Assembly (NCBI GenBank): GCA_002878375.1
Contig: NIRF01000028.1
Location: 1-6,951, forward strand
Length of the DNA stretch: 6,951 nt
Reading direction: 5' to 3'
Source of the DNA: Dictyoglomus sp. NZ13-RE01
Lineage (GTDB): Bacteria > Dictyoglomota > Dictyoglomia > Dictyoglomales > Dictyoglomaceae
Numbering within the stretch: the first letter of the stretch is position 1; each line of letters begins with the position of its first letter. Shown here in pieces: positions 3,274 through 6,357 of the stretch. The notes beneath the pieces are model-generated. The model was not told the origin of the DNA. It made no database searches and saw only the letters and a program-made list of their open reading frames with translations. Both the position numbers and the translations under genes were made by a program.

Positions 3274-3483
3274 ATGTCTCAGGCTACGGCTCCCTCTTGG
3301 AGCGATGTAGTAAACAGCTTCCTTGGTGCAGTCCAGAGTGTGCTGAAGGCTATCGGAGACTGGATAACTAACAATGCAACCGCACTTGCGACTGCTATAA
3401 TCGGAATAGGAGTAGCTTACGGAATCGTCAGGATGGCTATGAGACTGCCTCTAGTGAGGGAGTTCTTCGGAAGATTCATTTAA
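3274..3483 (+). CDS. Candidate major coat protein, single-TM
   Basis: This 69-aa protein has an N-terminal amphipathic helix (WSDVVNSFLGAVQSVLKAIGDW, about 9-30) and a short polar turn (ITNNAT). A glycine-containing transmembrane helix (ALATAIIGIGVAYGIV, 37-52) follows, and the tail is basic (RMAMRLPLVREFFGRF). No signal peptide is visible. Amphipathic helix + TM + positive tail is the plan of helical coat subunits in inoviruses and of small hydrophobic coat proteins in archaeal spindle-shaped viruses; homology to either is not claimed. Expression looks strong: GGAGG 9 nt before the ATG, a dedicated terminator (T7, 3506-3512) and comparatively G/C-rich codons. It heads the structural block. 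Alternatives: a small membrane pore or holin. The structural role is inferred. Confidence 0.82.
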   Translation: MSQATAPSWSDVVNSFLGAVQSVLKAIGDWITNNATALATAIIGIGVAYGIVRMAMRLPLVREFFGRFI

Positions 3484-3561: not shown

Positions 3562-3777
3562 ATGGCTGAAGAACTTCCAGTTTTGCTGACTGGAACTACT
3601 GGAGCAGAAGAAGAAGCTCGGAGCACAATAGGAACAGTATTAGCTCAAATATTTACCATCATAAGAAACATATTGAACTATGTGCTTGAATACTCTAGAA
3701 GATTCTTCCAATGGGCTGGAGAAAATCCATTATACGCAACTTTATTTGTAAGTAATTTGATAATATGGTTATCGTGA
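3562..3777 (+). CDS. Second coat-like small membrane protein
   Basis: This 71-aa protein has a polar acidic N-terminus (1-20, with EEEAR). An amphipathic/hydrophobic helix follows (STIGTVLAQIFTIIRNILNY, 21-40), then a basic-aromatic segment (SRRFFQW) and a C-terminal TM helix (LYATLFVSNLIIWLS). I chose the ATG at 3562 because GGTGAT (3555-3560) lies immediately upstream; GTG at 3553 would place the start inside that site. Its plan mirrors the preceding 69-aa protein, including a shared W-x3-N…A-T segment at the helix-to-TM turn (WITNNATALAT against WAGENPLYAT). A minor coat subunit or a diverged paralogue is likely. It leads a run of genes joined by 5-12 nt gaps. Confidence 0.8.
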   Translation: MAEELPVLLTGTTGAEEEARSTIGTVLAQIFTIIRNILNYVLEYSRRFFQWAGENPLYATLFVSNLIIWLS

Positions 3778-3788
3778 GGTGGTAATAG

Positions 3789-3998
3789 ATGGAAGGACTG
3801 TTAGGCGGAATATTGAACCAGCTAAAAGCAAGTGGTCTTAATGCTAAAACAGGATTGGAAAATGGAACCGTAATAATAGAGTTTTCAGCAGACGATATAA
3901 AGAATGCTATAACCAAAGGAATGAACGAACAAGCTAAAAAGCTGATAGATCTCGAACTCCATGAGGGTAAAATGACCATAAAAATAAAGCTGTTCTAA
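3789..3998 (+). CDS. Small soluble alpha/beta protein
   Basis: This 69-aa protein starts 5 nt after GGTGGT (3778-3783). It has an N-terminal glycine-rich helix (MEGLLGGILNQLKASG), a strand pair (LNAKTGL, then GTVIIEFSA), a helix (DDIKNAITKGMNEQAKKL) and a final hairpin (IDLELHEG, KMTIKIKLF). There is no TM segment. Located between coat-like and large membrane-associated genes, it may be a virion assembly or linker protein. Its helix-hairpin-helix-hairpin order resembles the minus-strand 95-aa protein (2907-3194), with a similar 'GL…strand…S/G-x-x-I-x-N-x-x' section. That may be common descent or a common small fold. Family not recognised. Confidence 0.8.
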   Translation: MEGLLGGILNQLKASGLNAKTGLENGTVIIEFSADDIKNAITKGMNEQAKKLIDLELHEGKMTIKIKLF

Positions 3999-4008
3999 GT
4001 GGTGATAA

Positions 4009-5037
4009 ATGGATATACCAGGAATAAGTGATATAGTCAATGCTATAATAAACGGACTGAAAACAATAGCTGAATGGATAGAGAAGGCATTTTATACATT
4101 AGGATCTTGGATATGGAACACATTCGGAAGCATAGCTAATGCAATTTACAGCGCACTGCAATGGATTTACAACGGTCTGAAGTATATAGCTTCAACATTC
4201 GTAAACATTATAAAAGCTATTTGGAACTGGATAGTAGGTGTAATAAAGTCAATCTACAATACAATAAAGGGATGGATAGATGGATTTATCGACACAGTAA
4301 ACAATTGGTGGAACAGCATTATAATGAACATAAGACGGAAAATATACTTAACAGTATTGACTGATGTAAGTATAACAATGACTTGGAAAAGCTATGAAAA
4401 ATTCGCTAATGACCCAAGTAAAAAGACTTTCTTAACGGCTTTGACCAGTCCTTTATGGAGTCCACTACTTGGAACATTAGCAGGAAGTCTAATTGATTCA
4501 CTACTACCTAAACAGACTTCGCAGACTGTAAGCATGATTCCAAAGCTCAACTTACCAGACATAAGCTTTAATGAACTGCAAATAGAGAGTGCAGTAGAAC
4601 CAACTGCACCAGAAGCCCCGCAACTTCCACAAATAAGCTTTACAGTAGAAGAAGATATATTAGGAAGCTCAATTGGACTGTCTGTTATAGCTGGATTTCC
4701 ATCATACCCTGAAATAGATATAACTAATGTAATAGGAACCACGACTTTAAACAGTATAGAAACACTACCAATGATAAACATGTTTTCATCAATAGGATTG
4801 GTTTCAACTGGAACTATAATTCAAACAACGGTTAATAATACAGTTGGAGGAGTTAGTGGAGGAACTAATGTATTAGGTAATGCAATTGGTCTAGTAATGA
4901 TACCAGTATTATCTGATTTACACCAAGATATGACAAACAACAAGATAGGTTTAGTGATGGTATCAGTATTATCTAACTTGCACCAAGATATGGTAAACAA
5001 CCAAATAGGCTTAACAGTTATAGCTAACATAAAGTAA
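4009..5037 (+). CDS. Large protein with amphipathic hendecad repeats and C-terminal 20-residue repeats
   Basis: This 342-aa protein begins 2 nt after GGTGAT (4001-4006). Residues 8-110 are a Trp-rich, highly regular amphipathic helix in 11-residue units, clearest at 45-110 (AIYSALQWIYN, GLKYIASTFVN, IIKAIWNWIVG, VIKSIYNTIKG, WIDGFIDTVNN, WWNSIIMNIRR). Such hendecads favour lying on or wrapping membranes. Residues 111-168 mix strands and a hydrophobic segment (LLGTLAGSLIDSLL). Residues 169-215 are a Pro/Glu-rich linker. From 222, units of 20 residues begin with IGL or IG (222, 242, 262, then 293, 313, 333); the units at 293 and 313 are almost the same. It is the largest protein here, between coat-like and fibre-like genes, so a membrane-binding spike, end-cap or tail protein is the best inference. 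Family not recognised. Confidence 0.85.
   Translation: MDIPGISDIVNAIINGLKTIAEWIEKAFYTLGSWIWNTFGSIANAIYSALQWIYNGLKYIASTFVNIIKAIWNWIVGVIKSIYNTIKGWIDGFIDTVNNWWNSIIMNIRRKIYLTVLTDVSITMTWKSYEKFANDPSKKTFLTALTSPLWSPLLGTLAGSLIDSLLPKQTSQTVSMIPKLNLPDISFNELQIESAVEPTAPEAPQLPQISFTVEEDILGSSIGLSVIAGFPSYPEIDITNVIGTTTLNSIETLPMINMFSSIGLVSTGTIIQTTVNNTVGGVSGGTNVLGNAIGLVMIPVLSDLHQDMTNNKIGLVMVSVLSNLHQDMVNNQIGLTVIANIK
4885..5034 (+). repeat. Tandem 60-bp coding repeat
   Basis: Two adjacent 60-bp units (4885-4944 and 4945-5004) agree at 48 of 60 positions, followed by a half unit (5005-5034). They encode IGLVMIPVLSDLHQDMTNNK and its near copy at residues 293-332. Third-position differences among conserved codons show the units have been diverging under protein-level constraint. 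Confidence 0.8.
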
Positions 5038-5082: not shown

Positions 5083-5781
5083 GTGAGTGGAATAAAGTTT
5101 GAAGAAATAAAAGAGATTTTAGCAAACTCGATAAAGAACAACAGAAAACCAAAAGACCATTTCATAAAAACATATCTTCATTTAGAAGTCCGCAATGAAG
5201 ACGACGAAACAATAGCAAAAAGAAAGTATCTAAGCAGAAGCTGGGTGCAACCATTCGCCTATGTGCTGTATGGATTAATGAACGGATCGAAACCAACAGT
5301 ATACGGAATACCATATAAAGGTAATTTGAATACTGGCCCAGTTTGTGCTATGAGCATAAGTAGTTCTACAGTTTATATTGGAAACTTATTTAATGTATTA
5401 GCACCAGATGGTAACGGAAAATATGGAATAGTTGCAGGAACAGGAACTATTCCAGTATCTGCAACTGGTATGTTAATGCAACAATGGATAGATGAAGGTA
5501 ATATACACTACTATGGAACTACATTATCACAACTAACTCCAATAACTGGTGGCTATGAGTTTGCAGTAGTAAGGCAAATATCTAATAAAACACAAAATCC
5601 AATACAATTAACAGAATTTGGCCTTGTAGCAAAACCTGTCCTTGGTTATAGCGGTTCATGTGGTGGTGATCCTAACGCAGACCTATACTGGATGCTGTTG
5701 CATGATGTAAGAACAAGTGCACCATCAATACCATCTAACAGTGTATTAATAGTTAAATACATATTTAACTTCCTAGTCTAA
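5083..5781 (+). CDS. Virion/fibre-like beta protein, paralogue 1
   Basis: This 232-aa protein starts with GTG, with GGTG (5072-5075) 7 nt upstream. It is related to the next gene along most of its length: Y-x-H/D-x-x-V/L (31-36), SRSWV (51-55), YGIVAGTGTIPVS (114-126), FAVVRQISNKTQ (160-171), ExGLV (178-182), and a final LLHDVR…P…S…VLIVKYIF. The 'YGI-x-x-G-x-GT-x-P', 'E-x-GL' and 'R/H-D…P…G/S-x-x-L-x-V-x-Y' spacing is typical, in my knowledge, of beta-sandwich virion or fibre proteins of archaeal viruses. It has about 27 extra N-terminal residues, a Gly/Ser-rich loop (100-112) and an insertion with two nearby Gly pairs around C193. Host recognition or a virion surface component is the likely role. 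Confidence 0.8.
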   Translation: MSGIKFEEIKEILANSIKNNRKPKDHFIKTYLHLEVRNEDDETIAKRKYLSRSWVQPFAYVLYGLMNGSKPTVYGIPYKGNLNTGPVCAMSISSSTVYIGNLFNVLAPDGNGKYGIVAGTGTIPVSATGMLMQQWIDEGNIHYYGTTLSQLTPITGGYEFAVVRQISNKTQNPIQLTEFGLVAKPVLGYSGSCGGDPNADLYWMLLHDVRTSAPSIPSNSVLIVKYIFNFLV

Positions 5782-5793
5782 AGGTGGTAAAGT

Positions 5794-6357
5794 ATGGCTA
5801 AACCTGGAATACATGCCTATATAGATATACAACTAAAAGACAAAAACGGAAAGGTATTAAAAAAGTTAAGGTTTAAGAGCAAAAGCTGGGTCAAAAATAT
5901 GGCTATATTATTAAGTGGAGCTTTAAGTAATACAAGTTTTACATTAATAGATCAAAGCGGTAATAATGCTAATGTATCAAACAATACTGATGTAGTAAGT
6001 GTATTTAAAACAAATGCACCAGCAGGAGAAGACAGATATGGAATATTAGTAGGAAGTGGAACTAACCCCGTATCACCAAATGATTACAAACTATACAATA
6101 AAATATCAAATTCGGTATTAGCATATTCTGATACAAATATCGGACAATTTACTGGAGACGAAAACGGATTCACTTTCGCTATAAGCAGAACATTCACAAA
6201 CAATGGAACACAAGCTGTAACAGTATCAGAAGTTGGGTTAGCTATTTTAGGCGCTTCATTGTGGATATTAATAGCAAGAGATCTATTAAGCAGTCCTATA
6301 ACAGTTCAACCTGGTCAAGTCCTTCAAGTAGTATATGCTATATCGTTGCTACCGTGA
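5794..6357 (+). CDS. Virion/fibre-like beta protein, paralogue 2
   Basis: This 187-aa protein starts 5 nt after GGTGGT (5783-5788). It is predicted to be almost all beta. Landmarks: SKSWV (29-33), RYGILVGSGTNPVS (81-94), FTFAISRTFTNNGTQ (126-140), VSEVGLAILG (144-153) and WILIARDLLSSPITVQPG (157-174), closing with LQVVYAISLL. The end closely resembles the recurring 'LIARDxL-SP-x-x-V-x-PG-x-x-L-x-V-x-Y' signature I associate with virion proteins of archaeal viruses and some phages. It shares the core of the preceding gene, so a duplication is likely, possibly giving two subunits of one fibre or alternative receptor binders. An Asn/Ser-rich loop (53-66) is a candidate variable, surface-exposed region. 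Its stop overlaps the ribosome-binding site of the next gene. Confidence 0.83.
   Translation: MAKPGIHAYIDIQLKDKNGKVLKKLRFKSKSWVKNMAILLSGALSNTSFTLIDQSGNNANVSNNTDVVSVFKTNAPAGEDRYGILVGSGTNPVSPNDYKLYNKISNSVLAYSDTNIGQFTGDENGFTFAISRTFTNNGTQAVTVSEVGLAILGASLWILIARDLLSSPITVQPGQVLQVVYAISLLP

Follow-up and report, generated by a model that had tools for sequence, protein, structure and literature searches.

The open reading frame at positions 4,009 to 5,037 (+ strand) of the 6,951-nucleotide stretch analyzed here, which we call the window, encodes a 342-residue protein that begins with a long amphipathic helix of 11-residue (hendecad, 11/3) period. On sequence grounds, the protein is a divergent, short member of the SIFV0056-like family of lipothrixviruses, filamentous viruses of archaea in hot springs; the family is known but functionally uncharacterised. 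The helix and its period, the family membership, and the adnaviral context are each supported directly, and the gene order is similar, in part through weak matches. We put the chances at about even that the product is a low-copy protein of the virion end, with its helices assembled into an oligomeric bundle and its C-terminus facing outward.

The hendecad helix

The helix was first noticed in an earlier note made from the letters of the sequence, which correctly located a segment of about 100 residues at positions 4,009 to 4,338 (residues 1-110) and proposed an 11-residue period. Fourier analysis of hydrophobicity over these residues revealed a clear peak at 98.5-99 degrees per residue, compared with 98.2 degrees for an 11/3 periodicity. 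The spectral power was 21.9-26.8 at or near 11/3, a value reached by none of 1000 shuffles (mean maximum about 4), as opposed to 0.87 at the heptad frequency. At lag 11 we counted 25 identities, the highest number among lags up to 39. AlphaFold2, run on the single sequence, predicted one uninterrupted helix for residues 6-133 (4,024 to 4,407; pLDDT about 90-92 at residues 11-100), which would measure about 19 nm if straight; the rest of the protein lacked a confident model. Neither a compact globular fold nor an ordinary heptad coiled coil, the two outcomes named beforehand as contrary to the proposal, was found. The same periodicity filter was passed by 0 of 174 ORFs of at least 100 residues in other contigs of the bin (C1, C10, and C18-C27).

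Ten 11-residue units run in register through residues 1-110 without a break. The hendecads described earlier for residues 45-110 are thus real, while their extent was understated, with ten units from residue 1 instead of six. Five of the eleven positions (1, 2, 5, 6, and 9) are hydrophobic and lie on one face, and Asn, Ser, Gly, and Lys predominate at positions 4, 7, and 11. The polar phases are rich in Asn, Ser, Gly, and Thr, leaving the polar face uncharged, and the net charge is +2 for residues 1-110 or +3 for residues 1-115. The suggested alignment of Trp, Ile, and Tyr with a closing Asn fared unevenly. The alignment is strong for Ile, with 7+7 of 24 residues falling at two phases (p<0.0002 by shuffling), and modest for Asn (p=0.013). 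Trp is aligned weakly, as 4 of its 9 residues share a phase (p=0.03, rising to p=0.12 if redistributed among the hydrophobic positions only), and Tyr does not follow the register. The observation of a hendecad helix is therefore confirmed, and the interpretation that had been attached to it is partly supported. At the DNA level, no tandem repeat underlies the helix; the sole repeat in the ORF lies in its C-terminal coding region.

Family membership and viral context

A tblastn search with the ORF matched SIFV0056 and SBFV3 gp28, plus many tape-measure proteins. We built a profile from six lipothrixvirus proteins, SIFV gp56, SFV1 gp50, SBFV2 gp56, SBFV3 gp28, AFV2 ORF554, and AFV7 ORF542 (phrog_38695/phrog_37712), and judged its score against a phase-preserving null, in which residues are shuffled within each hendecad phase and both period and composition stay. 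The profile scored 35.6 bits against the window protein, and none of 1000 such shuffles reached this score (average 10.7 bits, maximum 33.8). The hhalign probability against the six-member family was 96.5. Searching the PDB with the SIFV-like profile gave no hits apart from FtbJ and a helical bundle of designed sequence at E=0.29.

The similarity continues past the helix. Residues 135-173 (4,411 to 4,527; SPLWSPLLGTLAGSLIDSLLPKQTSQ) form a post-helix segment that is also present in the SIFV0056-like proteins and in the ORF249-like proteins of AFV3, AFV6, and AFV9. Residues 111-200 scored 11.2 bits against a profile of the AFV3/6/9 ORF249 type (0 of 1000 shuffles, maximum 5.7) and 7.9 bits against the SIFV-like profile (1 of 1000 shuffles), and a profile of the segment alone scored 14.2 bits (0 of 1000 shuffles). 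The consensus of the segment reads SPfiAGfTS..AE..l.sFfPe in the SIFV0056-like proteins and iPLisfLAGSIIDSVIPNQ in the ORF249-like ones; the match pairs SPLWSPLLGTLAGSLIDSLLPKQ in the window protein with IPLISFLAGSIIDSVIPNQ in AFV3.

Sequence and alignment delimit a Pro/Gln-containing linker at residues 174-212 (4,528 to 4,644), after which residues 213-342 (4,645 to 5,034) constitute a beta-rich, variable C-terminal region for which AlphaFold2 gave no confident model. Residues 176-342 can be aligned by position with the SIFV0056-like proteins, at a score of only 1.6 bits. This region contains a 60-bp tandem repeat of 2.2 copies (4,884 to 5,013), encoding 20-residue units of the form ..IGLVM.PVLS.LHQDM.NN. 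Since comparable 54-60-bp repeats occur in the C-terminal parts of SBFV2 gp56 and SFV1 gp50, the repeat suggests a rapidly varying surface part.

The window protein has in common with the SIFV0056-like proteins an N-terminal 11/3 helix, with which every member tested opens, followed by an SP..AG..S hydrophobic segment and a Pro-rich linker. Its C-terminal region may be comparable to theirs, which is also beta-rich and bears tandem repeats in some cases, and the gene, like theirs, seems to adjoin fibre-like genes. It differs in its helix of about 130 residues, half the length of the roughly 200-240 residues in the family, in its total length (342 versus 542-615 residues, at about 20% identity), and in being rich in Trp. 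ORF249/250 of AFV3, AFV6, and AFV9 (phrog_18465) are similarly short, carry an N-terminal amphipathic helix, which scored as 11/3 in our scan, and have a nearly identical motif after it (LAGSIIDSVIPNQ versus LAGSLIDSLLPKQ), but they are only 249-250 residues long, end in a Cys-rich C-terminus, and lie in a different gene neighbourhood. These three betalipothrixviruses are without a full-length SIFV0056-like gene and have instead a 1170-1369-residue ORF together with the helix-bearing ORF249/250; because of this swap, the terminal module seems exchangeable. Separately, the 9.5-kb contig IMGVR_UViG_3300017469_000064 carries two inverted copies of a SIFV0056-like gene (1162-2952 and 6522-8372), possibly an assembly palindrome.

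Structural modelling and sequence matches together place the virus of the window in Adnaviria. The candidate major capsid protein (133 residues; 2,236 to 2,637, +) has the helical coat-protein fold of these viruses in its AlphaFold2 model (single sequence; pLDDT 70.6 on average and about 90 within the core). In a VIA-align comparison with the PDB, the top seven entries were all adnaviral coat proteins (SSRV1, AFV1 ORF140, two SIRV-type entries, SIFV, AFV1 ORF132, and the AFV1 virion entry) with Z of 8.1-10.0, and the next, unrelated chain had 6.6; Z may be inflated for helical bundles, yet no unrelated fold appeared among the top seven. Foldseek also ranked adnaviral chains first to sixth, with weak E-values of 0.02-0.6. 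The protein matched phrog_18994, to which AFV1 ORF132 belongs, with E=6.7e-4, and AFV1 ORF132 itself by phmmer at E of about 1e-5 in a small database.

Several neighbours, all on the + strand, have adnaviral relatives as well. The gene at 1,457 to 1,813 encodes a 118-residue homologue of AFV1 ORF144 and AFV7 ORF267 (phrog_12608), and that at 3,274 to 3,483 a 69-residue protein with one hydrophobic segment, assigned by sequence matches to the lipothrixvirus family phrog_9875. An unannotated ORF of SIFV (2357-2578), in the numbering gap of SIFV0042, belongs to the same conserved family. The run of genes containing the helix gene starts at 3,562 to 3,777 with a 71-residue small hydrophobic protein that weakly matches lipothrixvirus ORF80 (12.3 bits); a 69-residue protein without a detectable relative (3,789 to 3,998) separates the two. 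The presence of a small hydrophobic protein of lipothrixvirus type suggests that the virus would be of the enveloped kind; the coat protein fits either a rudivirus-like or a lipothrixvirus-like placement.

The window is an entire contig and was assigned to a bacterial bin, whose largest contig encodes trigger factor and ClpX. Its tetranucleotide correlation with that contig is 0.42, compared with 0.54-0.73 for the other contigs of at least 8 kb, and archaeal TATA-like TTTATAA boxes occur upstream of ATG ten times against 2.2 expected (0 of 200 shuffles). The compositional misfit and the enrichment of these boxes are therefore most simply explained by a fragment of an archaeal adnavirus that was mis-binned with the bacterium. 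A provirus of the bacterial host was considered and rejected; relatives gave only short DNA matches, with E of about 1e-3 or more. Seven genomes related at the order, class, and phylum levels returned only the window itself. Two more of the bin's small contigs likewise resemble archaeal DNA or plasmids. One of them (C29, 1-5973) is viral- or plasmid-like, with ribbon-helix-helix-like and small hydrophobic proteins and a 510-residue integrase/recombinase-like ORF. The other (C31, 1-3216) encodes a rolling-circle Rep (PF23343, Rep_1) and an AAA ATPase, and appears to be a circular replicon of about 3.08 kb, since its ends overlap by exactly 139 bp. No close relatives of the window were found in IMG/VR with six of its proteins as queries or in GTDB genomes with two, and none of 13 window proteins (ten, then three more) had a Pfam match above the cut-off.

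A putative virion-end protein and its alternatives

In AFV2, AFV7, and SBFV3, three ORFs come after the family gene that are mostly beta-rich and resemble fibre or lectin proteins, one of them being annotated as a lectin, and a small membrane protein of the ORF80 type is also encoded there. In the window, the ORF80-like gene lies two genes upstream of the hendecad gene and two fibre-like genes lie downstream. The first of these (5,083 to 5,781, +; 232 residues) has a fibre-like position without a family match. The second (5,794 to 6,357, +; 187 residues) encodes a beta-rich fibre-like protein with weak matches to the phage tail-fibre family phrog_4176 and to the lipothrixvirus ORF249/258 family of AFV7 and AFV2 (9.4 bits for ORF249). 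The gene order is similar to that of the lipothrixviruses, a likeness that rests partly on weak matches of 9-12 bits and is not an identity of order.

The ends of lipothrixvirus virions bear claws, brushes, or mops that mediate adsorption (PMC4456609). From these terminal structures, the gene order of the family, and the fibre-like neighbours, we infer a location at the virion end; an oligomeric bundle and a role at the membrane or on the DNA are proposed in addition. A few copies of the protein would sit at the end of an enveloped-type filamentous archaeal virus. The 128-residue helix would self-associate through its wide Ile/Trp/Leu face into a long helical bundle that may anchor or plug the virion terminus. 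The Pro/Gln linker and the repeat-bearing, beta-rich C-terminus would then project outward together with the products of the two fibre-like genes. During entry, the bundle may insert into or cross the host membrane, perhaps as a conduit, much as has been proposed for the tape-measure proteins of tailed phages.

The physical character of the helix also bears on a role in membrane wrapping, which the earlier note had proposed alongside a place at the virion tip. Its hydrophobic arc covers about half of the helix, the hydrophobic moment averages 0.57 with a maximum of 0.73 per 18 residues, and Trp residues line the edge of the hydrophobic face. A HeliQuest-type lipid-binding score of at least 0.68, the usual threshold, was obtained in 46% of its 18-residue windows. 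These features could be accounted for by an interfacial membrane helix lying flat on, or curving, a viral or host membrane, as in envelope closure at the virion end or at a budding neck; the homologues in enveloped lipothrixviruses and the three small hydrophobic proteins encoded nearby would agree with it. In most relatives, however, the score is low (5-16% of windows), and Trp makes up 0-3% of residues, compared with 8% in the window protein. The lipid-binding traits are thus not conserved in the family, in whose helices only the periodicity is constant. Because the polar face is nearly uncharged and the rudiviruses, which lack an envelope, have an equivalent helix, we regard membrane wrapping as possible but rather unlikely. 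Of the two earlier proposals, the tip role fits the homologues and the gene order, while wrapping as the main function was not established.

The published proteomics permits a different explanation. Mass spectrometry of SFV1 virions yielded a list of eight proteins from which ORF50, the member of this family, is missing (PMC6105669); the records of AFV3, AFV6, and AFV9 likewise leave ORF249/250 without a virion-protein label. A non-virion factor that acts within the infected cell, for instance by helping to envelop the particle there, to scaffold its end, or to bring about egress, and that mature particles do not keep, would explain both observations. Gel-band mass spectrometry, however, easily misses low-copy proteins, and the beta-rich fibre- or lectin-like neighbours speak for the virion end, as does the likeness to the terminal-filament protein of rudiviruses, so that we consider such a factor improbable. 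Conversely, a virion-end protein is compatible with the missing ORF50 and the unlabelled ORF249/250 only if its copy number is low. In AFV1, cryo-EM revealed density in the lumen that was assigned to a minor protein of either the virus or its host (PMC5517147), which is only suggestive that adnavirus lumens hold minor proteins, since our scan detected no protein with a long 11/3 helix in AFV1.

The hendecads and the Asn-rich polar face would also suit a DNA-translocating tube for genome exit, in which several copies turn an Asn-rich face inward by analogy with the phiX174 H protein, a decameric tube whose hendecads direct amide and guanidinium side chains inward (PMC7354561). The H hendecads, however, are rich in Gln, Lys, and Glu and hardly hydrophobic, whereas the window helix is far more hydrophobic, and the two proteins have no sequence relation, which makes this explanation very unlikely.

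Finally, there is next to no probability that the protein is a true tape-measure protein from a virus with a tail. In its favour, residues 5-110 are matched by about 15 tape-measure profiles (best E=2.6e-6), and proteins of this class typically carry 11-residue Trp/Phe repeats (PMC3271669, PMC5099701). The matches, however, end where the helix does or close to it, we recognised no gene for a tail tube, portal, or terminase in the window, and the coat-protein fold contradicts such membership. Size excludes a length-measuring role, because filaments of about a micrometre are far too long for a helix of 19 nm to measure. The profile matches could reflect common periodicity alone.

Comparison with known systems

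End closure, attachment, and DNA delivery of filamentous archaeal viruses are largely open topics (PMC4456609). The recurring N-terminal hendecad helix offers a concrete candidate among the proteins of lipothrixvirus terminal structures, most of which are unassigned, and the window adds a divergent adnavirus that, with the queries tried, has no close relative in IMG/VR or GTDB.

To survey the recurrence of such helices, we scanned ORFs of at least 60 residues in the window, in three IMG/VR contigs, and in adnavirus records, some of them partial. Few of the encoded proteins had a long helix of 11/3 period. The large ones were the SIFV0056-like proteins and the rudivirus proteins SIRV2 P1070 and ARV1 ORF1115, with N-terminal 11/3 helices of 168 and 171 residues, respectively; a few small proteins also passed. 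P1070 is the presumed building block of the terminal filaments by which the host is recognised (PMC10848311). P1070 and ORF1115 (phrog_7334) resemble the window protein in their uncharged N-terminal 11/3 helix and in a gene position beside fibre-like genes, but they exceed 1000 residues, come from a non-enveloped virus, and are comparable only in helix architecture. With P1070, the similarity did not extend beyond periodicity, as 50-90 of 1000 phase-preserving shuffles reached the score, and the post-helix segment profile gave no match. The link is therefore architectural rather than a proven homology, and our comparison gave no support for homology beyond the helix.

Both the SIFV0056-like and the P1070-like proteins all match tape-measure profiles as well. 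The helix sequence matched only two PDB entries, each with three chains: FtbJ at E=0.02 and CD1366, a tape-measure protein, at E=7. CD1366 is reported to form a homotrimeric coiled coil that lies within the lumen of the tube (PMC11329794). Both entries speak for an oligomeric bundle, the form in which tape-measure proteins work. It is conceivable, if somewhat doubtful, that enveloped and non-enveloped viruses of the Ligamenvirales type have in common a tape-measure-like terminal device, of which the window protein would be a small version. With the same reserve, the device might consist of an oligomeric hendecad bundle held in the virion end and released on entry to open the membrane and let the genome through, to which each family would add its own adhesin domains.

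The helices of apolipoproteins and synuclein, to which the earlier note had likened this one, agree with it in the 11/3 period and the broad hydrophobic face. Their polar faces are charged, whereas that of the window protein consists of Asn, Ser, Gly, and Thr, so this part of the likeness does not hold. The DNA pilot protein H of phiX174 likewise combines a hendecad helix with amide side chains, but is far less hydrophobic and unrelated in sequence. The tape-measure proteins, such as TP901-1 TMP and CD1366, present the same kind of hendecad, aromatic-marked amphipathic helix, and the window protein has 11-residue Trp/Phe hendecads of their type, but they belong to another virus realm, the match is confined to the helix, and the window protein cannot measure length. 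In sum, the helix architecture is common to the window protein and the rudivirus terminal-filament protein, and the periodicity is common to it and the phage tape-measure proteins.
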